Of a stretch of 39,098 nt of DNA, positions 4,760 through 39,098 are shown piece by piece (within the stretch, counting starts at the first letter, position 1; every line of letters starts with the position of its first letter). The position numbers were made by a program, and so were the translations under genes. The notes below the pieces were generated by a model. It ran no database searches. It worked only from the letters and a program-made list of their open reading frames with translations, and was not told where the DNA came from. Source of the stretch: Emergencia sp. (GTDB taxonomy: Bacteria; Bacillota; Clostridia; Peptostreptococcales; Anaerovoracaceae); assembly GCA_022767345.1 (NCBI GenBank), contig JALEOD010000014.1, positions 1-39,098 on the forward strand, read 5' to 3'.

Positions 4760-6116
4760 TACAGTCTTTCTGCTGGCATTTTTGCCAGCCACAGCCATTT
4801 TGTATTATCTTGTACCAAAGAGCACGCGAAACAGCGTGCTTCTTTTGGGCAGTCTGCTGTTTTACGGCTTCGGGGAGCCGAAATATCTGCTGGTAATGGC
4901 AGTATCGATTCTGTTCAATTACGGGTGCGGACTGGCAATATCCAAGAAGCCGCAGCGGCTTATGCTCGCTTTGGCTGTAATTGGGAATTTATCAATATTG
5001 GGGTATTTTAAATATGCGGGCTTTTTCTTTGGAAGCTTCGGCTTTGGGCAGGTGGTGCTGCCAATTGGTATTTCTTTTTATACGTTCCAAGCCATGTCCT
5101 ATGTGATAGACGTGTACCGTAAAAAAGCCGCGCCCCAGAGGAATCTGTTCCGCTTCGGACTTTATATCACGCTGTTTCCGCAGCTCATTGCAGGGCCTAT
5201 CGTCCGCTATGTAACCATTGAAGCTCAGCTTTCGGAGAGGGACAGCAGCTTAGAAAACTTTGCAGAAGGGACGAGGCGCTTTATCGTTGGCCTTGGCAAA
5301 AAGGTGCTCCTTGCCAATCAGGCGGGACTTCTTTGGGACGAAATTTCAGCCATGGACGCGGGCAGTATGCCGGCGGCAACGGCTTGGCTTGGCGCAATCG
5401 CCTTTACCTTTCAGATTTATTTTGATTTCGGCGGCTACTCGGATATGGCAATCGGCCTCGGCAGGATGTTCGGCTTTCACTTTGAGGAGAATTTCAACTA
5501 TCCGTACACCGCAAAGAGTATTACAGATTTCTGGAGAAGATGGCACATTTCTCTGAGCACGTGGTTTAAAGAGTATGTGTATATTCCTCTGGGTGGAAAC
5601 CGCAAAGGCCTATTAAGGCAGGTTGTGAATATATTGATTGTGTGGGCGCTGACCGGATTCTGGCACGGCGCCAGCTGGAATTTTCTGTGGTGGGGTGTAT
5701 ACTTCGGCGTTCTTTTGATTTTGGAAAAAGTCTGGCTGCTGCGCCGCCTTGAAAAACTGCCCGGCTTGCTGCAGCATGTTTACGCCCTGTTTTTCATCGT
5801 GCTGGGCTGGGTCATTTTTGCCCTGACTGACGGCACGGCATTCTTTTCCTACCTGAAAGCTATGGCATTTTGCGGCGGACTTTGGGACGGGCGAAGCGGC
5901 TACTTCCTTGCTACAGCAGGGGTACTCCTTGTCATCATGACCTTCGCTTCTACGCAGATTCCCGCAAAGTGTGCAAAGTCGGTGCTGGAAAAGCTGCAGA
6001 ACAAACCGGCGGTTTATCTGATTGTAAAAAATCTTACATATTTGCTGATTTTGACGGCGTCTATGGCGTTTTTAGTCAGCGACACCTATAATCCGTTTCT
6101 GTATTTCAGGTTTTGA
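4746..6116 (+). CDS. MBOAT family O-acyltransferase (AlgI/DltB-like)
   Basis: The protein has 456 residues and about 11 membrane segments. Family signatures: PIGISFYTFQAMSYVIDVYR near 106-125, DFWRRWHISLSTWFKEYVYI at 261-280 with PLGGNRKG, and TGFWHGASWNFLWW around 303-316 with catalytic His307. MBOAT proteins of this type move acyl groups across the membrane for transfer onto extracellular polysaccharide or teichoic acid. The start overlaps the end of the transglutaminase-like gene, and the DHHW partner follows at once, the usual AlgI plus AlgJ/X-like pairing. The acceptor polymer is not indicated in the window. Confidence 0.93.
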   Translation: MVFSSTVFLLAFLPATAILYYLVPKSTRNSVLLLGSLLFYGFGEPKYLLVMAVSILFNYGCGLAISKKPQRLMLALAVIGNLSILGYFKYAGFFFGSFGFGQVVLPIGISFYTFQAMSYVIDVYRKKAAPQRNLFRFGLYITLFPQLIAGPIVRYVTIEAQLSERDSSLENFAEGTRRFIVGLGKKVLLANQAGLLWDEISAMDAGSMPAATAWLGAIAFTFQIYFDFGGYSDMAIGLGRMFGFHFEENFNYPYTAKSITDFWRRWHISLSTWFKEYVYIPLGGNRKGLLRQVVNILIVWALTGFWHGASWNFLWWGVYFGVLLILEKVWLLRRLEKLPGLLQHVYALFFIVLGWVIFALTDGTAFFSYLKAMAFCGGLWDGRSGYFLATAGVLLVIMTFASTQIPAKCAKSVLEKLQNKPAVYLIVKNLTYLLILTASMAFLVSDTYNPFLYFRF

Positions 6117-6133
6117 TAGGAGGTTTGCAGGAG

Positions 6134-7282
6134 ATGAGAAAAAAAGACGACATAATTATGACTGTTGTGTTTGCCGGATTTCTGCTGATTCTTCTTCTGG
6201 GAGGAATTTTCATGAAGGACAAGCATTTTTCGGAAAACGAAAACAGGATGCTCCAGCAGGCGCCGGAACTTACCGCAGAAAGGGTGCTCAGCGGCGCTTT
6301 TGAGTCGGAACTTCAGCAGTATATGGACGACCAGGTGCCGTTTCGCAATCAGTGGATTACCGCAAAGACGACCATGCAGCGGCTGATGTTAAGAAAAGAT
6401 ATAGGTGGTGTTTATCTGGGAAAGGACGGCTGGTTCATAGAAAAGCTCACGCCGGAGGCGATGCATCACCAGCAGTTTTTAAAGAATTTGCAGTCGGTGA
6501 AAGATTTCTATGAGGCGCTGCCTTCCGATATGGGAAAATCCGTCATGGTGGTGCCGACCACCGGTGCAGTGATGGAGGATAAACTGCCTAAAGGCGCTGC
6601 CCGCTTTGATGAAGCGGCTTACGCGAAGGAAGCGGCACAGCAGCTGATAAACTGCGGTTATGTGGACCTTTACGAAACCTTTGCGTCCATCGCAAAAGGT
6701 GAAAATACCCAGCTTTATTACAAAAAAGATCACCACTGGACCACCGACGGTGCGGCTCTTGCCTTTGGGGTGTGGAAACCGTGGCTGGATTTTTTGGGAA
6801 CAGAAAAACAGGTGCTCACTGAGGATTTTCAGGGCACGCTGTACTCCAAAGTTCTTTGGGACGACGGCATGCGGGATTCTATCAGCGCATTGACTGCGCC
6901 GGAGCAGGAGGTTTACAAAGTGACGGCAGACGGCAAGGCACTTACCGGTGGCATGTACCAGAGAGCGTTCCTTGAGAAAAAAGATAAATACAGCGTGTTC
7001 TTCGGCGGAAACTACGGCAGACTTTCCATTGAAACGGGAAAGAAAGAAACCGGGCAGAATCTTTTAATCATCAAGGATTCTTTCGCCAACTGTTTTGCGC
7101 CTTTGGCTGCGTATCACTACGACAATGTGTATATGGTGGATTTGCGCTACTTCAGCGGGAATCTGGCAGAATACGCGAAGGAGATGGGCGTTACTGAAGT
7201 ACTGCTCCTTTACAGTATGGAGAATATGATAAACGACAGGAACTTGTCCGCACTTTCAGCAGGGGGAATGATTCTTTCCTAA
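6134..7282 (+). CDS. DHHW family protein (AlgJ/AlgX-like acetylation partner)
   Basis: The ATG at 6134 is preferred over an in-frame TTG at 6113 because AGGAGG at 6118-6123 sits 10 bases before it. The protein has 382 residues with one N-terminal membrane anchor (about 8-27). The family signature DHHWTTDGA is at 199-207, in the position of the catalytic Asp-His of AlgJ/AlgX SGNH-like enzymes. IIKDSFANCFAPL near the C-terminus would supply the serine. It probably accepts the acyl group delivered by the MBOAT protein and transfers it to an extracellular glycan. Last gene of the 3248-7282 operon. Confidence 0.88.
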   Translation: MRKKDDIIMTVVFAGFLLILLLGGIFMKDKHFSENENRMLQQAPELTAERVLSGAFESELQQYMDDQVPFRNQWITAKTTMQRLMLRKDIGGVYLGKDGWFIEKLTPEAMHHQQFLKNLQSVKDFYEALPSDMGKSVMVVPTTGAVMEDKLPKGAARFDEAAYAKEAAQQLINCGYVDLYETFASIAKGENTQLYYKKDHHWTTDGAALAFGVWKPWLDFLGTEKQVLTEDFQGTLYSKVLWDDGMRDSISALTAPEQEVYKVTADGKALTGGMYQRAFLEKKDKYSVFFGGNYGRLSIETGKKETGQNLLIIKDSFANCFAPLAAYHYDNVYMVDLRYFSGNLAEYAKEMGVTEVLLLYSMENMINDRNLSALSAGGMILS

Positions 7283-7297
7283 AAAGAAAACTTCCTC

Positions 7298-7326
7298 TTG
7301 AAAGTCGGGCGGATTTGTCGCATAAT
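7298..7326 (+). promoter_or_regulatory. Candidate sigma-A promoter of the metA-aspartate kinase operon
   Basis: TTGAAA (7298-7303) and CATAAT (7321-7326) are separated by 17 bases. The start site would be near 7333, only a few bases before a terminator hairpin, so the transcript would begin with that hairpin. Confidence 0.6.
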
Positions 7327-7336
7327 AGTAATGATA

Positions 7337-7382
7337 GGACTGTTTGTCCCAGAGCAAAAGGAGACGGACAGTCCATTTTTTT
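7337..7382 (+). terminator. Rho-independent terminator, possible leader attenuator
   Basis: GGACTGT (7337-7343) pairs with ACAGTCC (7368-7374), followed by seven Ts (7376-7382). It lies five bases before the ribosome site of the metA fusion. It may end the upstream acetylation operon, but because the best promoter is upstream of it, it may also attenuate the fusion gene. I see no SAM riboswitch or T-box in the short leader. Confidence 0.7.
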
Positions 7383-7402
7383 AGTAGAGGAGGCGTTTGT
7401 TT

Positions 7403-9670
7403 ATGCCAATTAAAGTACCAAACAATTTACCGGCTATTGAGACACTGACTGCGGAGAACATCTTCGTCATGACCGATACCCGCGCCATGACACAGGACAT
7501 CAGACCGCTGCAGATTTTGATTCTCAATCTGATGCCGACTAAAATAGATACAGAGACACAGCTGACAAGACTCCTTGGAAATACACCGCTGCAGGTGGAA
7601 CTGGAACTTTTGCAGACCAGCACCCACAAAGCGTCCAATGCTTCTGAGGAGCATATGATTGCTTTTTACAAGACCTTTGATCAGATTAAACATAAAAATT
7701 ACGACGGTATGATTATTACCGGCGCGCCGGTGGAACTGCTGCCTTTTGAGGAAGTGGACTACTGGGATGAACTTTGCGAAATTATGGAGTGGTCCAAACG
7801 CCACGTTCACAGTACCTTCCATATCTGCTGGGGCGCTCAGGCGGGCCTCTACTACCATTACGGCATTGAAAAGAGAAAACTGCCGAAGAAGCTTTCCGGC
7901 GTGTACAAGCATACTTTGGACTACAAGAAAGGCATGCTGTTCCGTGGCTTTGACGATGAGTTCTATGTGCCCCATTCCAGAAATACTACGGTGGACAGGG
8001 AAGATGTGGAAAAGATTCCGGAGCTGGAAATTATCTCCACTTCTGATGAAGCAGGAATTTACGCCATTAAGTCCAGAAACGACAGACAGATTTTTATCAT
8101 GGGTCATTCGGAGTATGACGGAGACACTTTGCTGAAGGAATATCTGCGTGACAAGAATGCGGGGATTCACCCTGACGTGCCGTGCAACTATTTCCCTGAC
8201 GATGACGACACCAAAGAACCTACTGTAAAGTGGCGCTCATCTGCTAACCTGCTGTACTGCAACTGGCTCAACTATTTCGTATATCAGACGACCCAGTATG
8301 ACGTGAACCAGATTAACGATGAATCCCTTGCAGACGCTTTTACCCAGAAAGCAGACTGCAAAGTCGCCAAGTTCGGCGGCACATCTCTTGCTGACAGCGG
8401 GCAGTTTAAAAAGTGCGCAGCTATCATAAAAGAAGATGAGGCGAGAAAGTATATCGTCGTATCAGCGCCGGGAAAACGGTCTGCTGACGACGTGAAGGTG
8501 ACGGATCTGCTCATTTCCTGCACGGAAAACAAGGGTGAACAGGCGGAAGAAATTCTCGCCAAGATTCAGTCCAGATATAAAGTTTTGGTCAGAGGACTGG
8601 GCGTTAAAATAGACATCGATGAGGAGTTTAGCAGAATTCGGGCGGCTCTGGGCGATGAATCCAGGAAGGATTACATCATCAGCAGAGGGGAATATCTCAA
8701 CGCCAAGATTATGGCGGCATACCTGGGAGTTGATTTTATCGATGCCGAAGGACATATTTTCCTAAAAGAAGACGGCACCTACGATGAGGAAAAGACTAAG
8801 TCGGTGCTTGGTAAAGCTCTGGCAGAAACGAAGCGGGCAGTCCTTCCGGGTTTTTACGCAAGCCTTCCTTGCGGTGCAGTGAAAACCTTTGCAAGAGGCG
8901 GCTCAGATATTACAGGTGCTGTCGTCGCCGCAGTAGCCGGCGCGGACCTTTACGAAAACTGGACCGATGTGTCAGGTCTTCTCATGGCTGACCCTCGGAT
9001 TGTGGACAAACCGCGCAGCGTGCCGGTGATTACCTATAAAGAGCTTCGCGAGCTTTCCTACATGGGCGCGGCGGTGCTTCATGAGGATACGGTTTTTCCT
9101 GTAGTAAAACTGGAAATTCCAATTAATATCAGAAATACCAATAAGCCGGAGGACCACGGCACTTTAATTGTAAAGAATGCGGACTATTATCAGTCCAGTC
9201 TGGAAATTTCCGGTATTTCCGGAAAGACTGGCTATACGGCAATCTTGATAGAAAAAGGAAAGATGAGCGAGGAACCGCAGCTGCGTGCGGAGATTCTGGA
9301 AATCTTTGACGAGAGAAAAATTGCGGTCAAGAATATCCTGTCCAGCATAGATTCCCTCAATATCATCGTTCATGAATCCGACGTAAGAAACTGCATTTCT
9401 GAGCTTACCGAAGAGATTTGGGACAAAGTACCCCAGGGCACAGTGACTGTAACCGGCGATGTGGCTTTAATCGCTGTCGTCGGACGGGAACTTGGCACTT
9501 CACCTGCCGTTGCCGTAAAGGTGCTGGGCGCCCTTGCCAACCGCAAAATCAACGTAAAGCTCATCGACCACGGCGCGCAGAAAATCAATATGATGGTCGG
9601 CGTGGACAGCGCGGATTACATGGCGGCAGTACAGGCGATTTATACAGAATTTGCGAAAGTAGAACAGTAA
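7403..9670 (+). CDS. Homoserine O-acetyltransferase - aspartate kinase fusion
   Basis: One 755-residue frame holds two enzymes. Residues 1-300 are MetA: Cys142 in HICWGAQAG, His235 and Glu237 in MGHSEYD, and Glu111 in GAPVELL. In characterised MetA, Glu at 111 favours acetyl-CoA over succinyl-CoA. Residues about 319-755 are aspartate kinase: [11 protein letters not shown] at the start, [21 protein letters not shown], and two C-terminal ACT-type domains (about 605-755) that usually bind feedback amino acids. A linker of about 17 residues joins them. The two reactions are the first step of the aspartate family and the first committed methionine step, with two reactions between. Start chosen at ATG 7403 because AGGAGG is 9 bases before it. 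Confidence 0.93.
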
Positions 9671-38831: not shown

Positions 38832-39098
38832 GTGTGCCAGGCATGGCACAATTCTAACGGGTGAAAGTCCCGAGTGCGCGTAGGCAACGACGAAGCACAT
38901 AGCCGAACAGCAAGGGTGTCCACCGCGAGACGGAATCTGAAAGAAGCTGTAAGCAAACCTCTGACCTGACGGACAGGAACCGCATATAAGGCTCGGAAAT
39001 ACGGATAAGGTGGCAAAAGGCACTGAAGTCCAAAAGGTTGCCGGAAGTACGAGTAAATGCGGCAGGTACATGGAGGAAAAGAACACGCACCTTAACTG
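38832..39098 (+). mobile_element. Group II intron, 5' part (cut by window edge)
   Basis: The sequence begins GTGTG (the GUGYG start; 38830 is the alternative first base) followed by the stem GTGCC/GGCAC and AACGGGTGAAAGTCCCGAG, then AAGGGTGTCC and the GACGGACAGGAACCGCATAT region, all typical of domain I of bacterial group II introns. No reverse transcriptase frame is in the window; it should lie downstream. The insertion sits within a few bases of a terminator hairpin, the site preference known for the group IIC class. The class itself is not proven from this part. Confidence 0.85.

Follow-up and report, generated by a model that had tools for sequence, protein, structure and literature searches.

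Aspartokinase (AK) is the main control point in the synthesis of lysine, threonine and methionine. In ThrA (AK-HSD I) and MetL (AK-HSD II) it is joined to an enzyme of its own pathway, homoserine dehydrogenase (HSD), and in aspartokinase/diaminopimelate decarboxylase (model NF006515) it is likewise fused to a non-adjacent branch enzyme, here one of the lysine branch. Both kinds of bacterial fusion are named in the consulted parts of PMC2705460, in which a fusion of AK with MetA is absent; the consulted part of PMC12940168 gives Fusobacterium metL1 and metA as separate genes, and a term search within PMC3766115 returned no MetA-AK fusion. An earlier note on this DNA knew of no described fusion of this kind, in agreement with our search of open-access PMC (titles and abstracts, subscription literature lying outside its scope), where no description was found. 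Known separate enzymes include the MetA homoserine O-acetyltransferases (NF047918; structures 2h2w, 2ghr and 2vdj) and the standalone AKIII-like AKs of Clostridia (PRK09034; structure 3tvi).

The window, that is, the whole stretch of 39,098 nucleotides analysed here, contains a gene in which these two enzymes are joined. Its MetA half has the full length and the catalytic residues of the known MetA enzymes, with its C-terminus continued into an AK whose kinase motifs and ACT layout are those of the standalone AKIII-like enzymes. It may be compared with known AK fusions such as MetL, from which it differs by its N-terminal MetA and by the absence of an HSD domain. The features of the locus are as follows.

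7298..7326, + strand: candidate own promoter, TTGAAA-17-CATAAT
7337..7382, + strand: leader hairpin followed by T7, between the promoter and the ribosome-binding site (-21.5 kcal/mol for the leader)
7387..7393, + strand: ribosome-binding site GAGGAGG, 9 nt ahead of the ATG
7403..9670, + strand: metA-AK fusion gene, 755 aa plus stop (ATG at 7403, stop ending at 9670)
7403..8299, + strand: MetA domain (homoserine O-acetyltransferase-type HTS), residues 1-299, with K47, E111, C142, H235, E237 and R249
8300..8356, + strand: linker, residues 300-318, 19 residues between the Pfam matches
8357..9136, + strand: aspartokinase kinase domain, residues 319-578 (PF00696), with KFGG lysine K323 and RGGSD at 498-502
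9212..9412, + strand: ACT1-like region, residues 604-670 with bounds set by the analyst, in which the standalone-type pocket signature is lost
9458..9655, + strand: ACT2 region, residues 686-751 as drawn, with the ACT_9 match at 690-750

The earlier note had described one uninterrupted protein of 755 residues, and this was confirmed both by the open reading frame check (755 codons, internal stops absent) and by relatives joined in frame. Matches to Pfam were obtained for HTS (residues 2-299), AA_kinase (319-578) and ACT_9 (690-750), so that the AK with C-terminal ACT domains described earlier was recovered; the joint, put at about 17 residues, is indeed in frame, but the gap between the domains measures 19. 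No Homoserine_dh or NAD_binding_3 match was found in the window protein with Pfam, its scores for the AK-HSD models were below cut-off (226.7 versus 726 and 125.4 versus 582), and the same applied to NF006515 (141.8 versus 802). The closest solved structures were 2h2w for MetA and 3tvi for aspartokinase. A structure prediction for the fusion, based on 11 sequences only, was too weak for domain arrangement (mean pLDDT 62, pTM 0.40).

The earlier note had also proposed a search for this architecture in Clostridia together with a comparison of synteny; the search showed that the fusion is conserved in the family, and its neighbours were compared as well. Within the genus, the fusion was full length in 12 of 13 genomes, and in the thirteenth (G010) the match starts at contig base 3. 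Within the family, a one-frame fusion was found in 60 of 296 genomes, belonging to 13 of 92 genera. Chance or misassembly is ruled out as its cause by this recurrence in one frame at both levels. Of the 296 family genomes, 58 gave a single row covering the full length, its frame open over 754 aa or more; in seven of these rows one stop is counted, which from the frame lengths lies at the end of the match. In G262 and G184 insertions split the match, yet the frame reads through both domains. Exceptions in the family draw were G056, in which metA and AK lie next to each other as two genes, the partial matches of G010 and G213, and G267 (L117), in which a frame change breaks the fusion inside the kinase at about L117 2519-2618 (- strand). 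The matches included a Mogibacterium MAG (L025), of a genus placed in Anaerovoracaceae, and a Candidatus Avanaerovorax (L026). In one fusion (L115:2291-4777, + strand) a GNDGD-like low-complexity repeat is inserted within the kinase domain. Among the matches listed for the order (297 genomes), class (391) and phylum (398), draws which overlap, no full-length fusion of this ACT-bearing type was found outside the family.

A second design consists of MetA and the AK kinase domain without ACT, in proteins of about 600 residues matching to about query residue 590. Among the matches listed, it occurred in 14 genomes from four other families (codes f10, f2, f42 and f121): G315, G304, G380, G351, G318, G417, G798, G698, G781, G678, G510, G832, G593 and G921, at loci L173-L178, L181-L187 and L241. 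The two ACT-less proteins submitted to Pfam (L173 and L241) contained HTS and AA_kinase only. These proteins join metA to an upstream pathway enzyme, as in the window, and so does a third design, MetA-HSD, of which a single case was found among the matches listed (G718/L188; L188:4638-6950, - strand, 771 aa; HTS 10-307, NAD_binding_3 399-501, Homoserine_dh 512-690). This last protein, with metY upstream of its gene, brings two adjacent pathway steps together on one chain.

Both halves probably retain their activities. The MetA half scored 459.9 bits against PF04204 (HTS; cut-off 27) and 487.1 bits against NF047918 (MetA_acetyl, NCBIfam; cut-off 460.5), and remained under the cut-off of TIGR01001 (MetA_succinyl; 445.2 versus 495). 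Glu111, Cys142, His235 and Glu237 all stand at the canonical numbers given for them in the earlier note. We take Cys142, His235, Glu237 and Lys47 to be catalytic and Glu111 to denote acetyl; the MetA half would acylate homoserine, probably by acetylation. The AK half passed the cut-offs of two aspartate kinase models, PRK09034 (NCBIfam; 461.2 versus 434) and TIGR00657 (246.8 versus 208.7). The KFGG lysine, RGE and RGGSD are, on our assumption, the aspartate kinase motifs with functional roles. In an alignment of 53 distinct ACT-type and 13 ACT-less fusions, made without L117, L188 and L241, the MetA residues K47, E111, C142, H235, E237 and R249 and the AK residues K323, R428, G429, E430, R498, G499, G500 and D502 were invariant (53/53 and 13/13). 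One half could instead be inactive and serve the other as scaffold or regulator, which would account for the joining of non-adjacent steps; given invariant active sites in both designs and enzyme NCBIfam cut-offs passed by both halves, we find this hardly credible. In the same alignment, linker columns 300-319 held 20-22 residues in ACT-type fusions and eight in all 13 ACT-less ones.

The reading that we favour, with some confidence, is that the fused AK works as an isozyme of the methionine branch, separate from the standalone AK and tying precursor supply to methionine demand. One chain would carry homoserine acylation by MetA and an aspartokinase feeding the aspartate pathway; AK and the enzyme that opens the branch would be produced in equal amounts, so that the supply of aspartyl phosphate would follow methionine demand, and the standalone AK would be left to serve the other branches. 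According to the consulted part of PMC10464499, E. coli has such a methionine-repressed isozyme in AKII, and it is this role that is proposed here for the fused AK. The two steps are non-adjacent, and our data support the earlier view that simple channelling is an unlikely explanation; it is not the obvious reason for the fusion. The earlier idea that the ACT domains control both halves fails as a general reason, owing to the ACT-less fusions in four other families; since such forms exist, the value of the fusion is independent of ACT sensing.

Gene neighbours and RNA leaders give the ACT-less design its connection to methionine. A metY gene lies directly upstream of 10 of the 14 ACT-less fusions (L173, L174, L176, L177, L178, L182, L185, L186, L241 and L175, the last with only the end of metY on the contig), and downstream are hom and asd in L173, L177 and L178, and asd in L241. 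A SAM riboswitch precedes two of the 14 (L173 and L174) and a T-box eight (L176, L177, L178, L181, L183, L184, L185 and L241); no leader was found at gathering score for L175 (contig end), L182, L186 and L187. In the alignments, as read by the analyst, all eight T-boxes carry GAA-C/G-AUG-G at the specifier place, corresponding to the methionine codon, provided that the specifier is correctly placed. The ACT-less form would thus be controlled at the RNA level, through a SAM riboswitch or a tRNA-Met T-box. The upstream metY, the downstream hom and asd, and the AUG T-boxes or SAM riboswitches are among the grounds for the methionine-isozyme reading.

Such leaders are lacking in ACT-type fusions: no SAM riboswitch or T-box was found upstream on the same strand in 22 cases, versus 10 of 14 in ACT-less ones. 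The scan covered 23 ACT-type genomes (the window, L005, L006, L021, L023-L026, L097, L104, L108, L112, L113, G232, G139, G007, G104, G072, G183, G127, G141, G023 and G044), of which L108, with 56 nt upstream, was dropped; the others had at least 1355 nt and the window more than 7 kb. At L249 a T-box is present on the strand opposite the fusion. In the window, positions 7100-7600 held no known leader at gathering, the sole match being a weak one to an lncRNA family (E 0.94). The hairpin at 7337-7382, missed by a terminator scan with a loop limit of 8, is a possible attenuator without Rfam match; its sequence is shared only with a 93% relative (L003). Of 53 upstream stretches, 12 show the promoter pattern, with CATAAT or TATAAT as second hexamer; they belong to the nearer relatives. 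At the end of the window (38919-39089, + strand), a group II intron D1-D4-3 match of 132 bits was recorded.

No methionine gene was found among the ten ORFs scanned around the window gene, which encode CAAX protease-like, CAP, DUF4358, transglutaminase-like, MBOAT, DHHW/AlgX-like, nucleoid protein NA37, DUF1848, 4Fe-4S and membrane transporter proteins, and most ACT-type loci are likewise devoid of the neighbours tested (metY, hom, asd and metK alone). The methionine role of the window fusion therefore rests on its MetA half and on its ACT-less cousins, and the lack of methionine neighbours and of a known leader counts against the methionine-isozyme reading. The metY gene is directly upstream of three ACT-type fusions (G205, G094 and G179) and is intact and above cut-off, away from the fusion, in 12/12 other genomes of the genus; both observations argue for the methionine-isozyme reading. 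In the window genome itself no intact metY was found, only a remnant of 96 residues, mid-contig (L239, about 5979-6266, - strand, equal to G000:C17:31978-32265), which is counted against this reading.

The ACT region is kept in 53/53 distinct ACT-type fusions (lengths 748-822), and its sequence departs from that of standalone AKs. Four positions, picked after viewing the alignment, so that the contrast is descriptive and not a blind test, distinguish the two groups in ACT1: Gly626 (24/24 standalone AKs versus 6/53 fusions), an acid, E or D, at 643 (23/24 versus 7/53), His644 (23/24 versus 5/53) and Pro646 (24/24 versus 0/53). All four positions of this signature (G626/E643/H644/P646 in the AKIII-like enzymes) are present in 23 of 24 standalone AKs, and fusions keep none of them in 38 of 53 cases, one in 12 and two in three. 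Asp650 is common to all 53 fusions and all 24 standalone AKs. In the ACT2 loop, 43 of 53 fusions have H723 where every standalone AK (24/24) has Q. An alignment of the standalone AK of the window genome with the Arabidopsis aspartokinase 2cdq places its Gly-Phe and acid on GF and D. By this alignment the signature would be linked to lysine, 2cdq being an enzyme that binds lysine and SAM; Gly626 would correspond to G323 of E. coli AKIII. Substitutions G323D, T344M and S345L make that enzyme lysine-insensitive, according to the consulted part of PMC10464499. The usual shut-off by lysine is thus probably weakened or lost in the window AK, which would be insensitive or would answer another effector instead. 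The label 'feedback-type' given in the earlier note is therefore doubtful, and ACT control of both halves is weakened by the complete absence of the signature in 38 of 53 ACT-bearing fusions. Conversely, the retention of the ACT_9 region in 53 fusions counts against its use being wholly lost. The loss of the standalone signature and the conservation of the checked catalytic residues are further grounds for the methionine-isozyme reading.

It could be imagined, as a sharper version of the idea in the earlier note, that the ACT region has been retuned, so that it binds methionine or SAM, either singly or together with another amino acid, and thereby inhibits AK and, via the chain, MetA. The region is present in all 53 fusions with a pocket and an ACT2 loop consistently unlike those of standalone AKs, the distribution of methionine leaders would fit a shift of control to the protein itself, and a relative in the PDB, 2cdq, binds lysine and SAM. 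However, variability among the three fused-AK regions compared is highest in ACT1, with a mean entropy of 1.93 versus 1.40 in the kinase and 1.54 in ACT2 (standalone AKs: 1.33, 1.04 and 1.08, respectively), and several changed positions are non-uniform, unlike what a new shared pocket would show. We consider such retuning rather unlikely. Equally doubtful to us is the broader proposal of two controls on one design, an RNA leader in ACT-less forms or, without leader, an ACT region re-specified from lysine to a methionine metabolite; if true, a single ligand would gate the entry enzyme and the branch enzyme in the form found in the window. In the favoured methionine-isozyme reading, the AK of the ACT-bearing form, without such a leader and with a changed ACT1 pocket, would be insensitive or would respond to another effector.

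The AK complement of the genomes was also considered. Exactly two AKs of the window genome exceed the TIGR00657 cut-off, the fusion and one standalone enzyme; three HSD-like genes and one dapA-like gene are present as well. A second AK match was found in 13/13 genus genomes (as two pieces in G009). No second AK match was found in the fusion genomes G210, G226 and G237 (77-85% complete), which is counted against the methionine-isozyme reading. A kinase-domain tree, built with every third ACT-type row and every second earlier standalone row (of the 20 new AKs, 19 passed the motif filter and L306 was missed), split 28 fused rows from 32 standalone or tandem AKs with a support of 97. This separate lineage, along with the presence of a second AK, is a further ground for the methionine-isozyme reading. 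When the AK tree was rooted on two distant AKs, without L014 and L117 and with ACT-type rows thinned from 53 to 45, ACT-less fusions fell outside. In MetA trees, ACT-type fusions were placed among standalone Clostridia MetAs, apart from ACT-less fusions (group supports 94-99); in one tree rows were thinned at an identity of 90% (ACT-type) or 80% (standalone), and in another every second one of the earlier rows of both kinds was included. In a third, from which six long or unsure rows were dropped, a constraint holding both fusion types together survived the AU test as one clade (p-AU 0.165). One or two fusion events are both compatible with these trees.

Unfused neighbours also exist: metY-metA-AK at L118, with metA and AK in one frame separated by one stop and a 6-nt gap, SAM riboswitch-metA-AK-hom at L179/L180 and SAM riboswitch-metK-AK-metA at L202. 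(Neighbours checked with NCBIfam were metY in L173, L241 and L118, hom in L173 and L179, asd in L173, L177, L178 and L241, and metK in L202.) L118 was considered as a direct ancestor and rejected, its AK and its MetA grouping with standalone ones in the trees. These arrangements, and the MetA-HSD case showing that metA has joined more than one pathway partner, would suit a frozen operon accident, in which the stop between metA and a neighbouring AK was lost, giving equal enzyme amounts and no special regulation; the fused AK is, however, a separate lineage with its own ACT changes, and persistence in 13 of 92 family genera seems wider than a neutral fate would suggest, so that we judge such an accident improbable. 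In four family genomes with separate MetA (L198, L202, L203 and L204), the order SAM riboswitch-metK-standalone AK was observed, and a division into standalone AKs for lysine and fused AKs for methionine is consequently not clean.

In this group of Clostridia, the enzymes that open the aspartate pathway and its methionine branch are made as a single protein, apparently a private AK for methionine. Together with its ACT-less counterpart, mostly preceded by methionine-type RNA leaders, it offers a natural case for comparing how one enzyme is controlled at the protein and at the RNA level, and the fused AKs may be a source of AKs that escape lysine inhibition.
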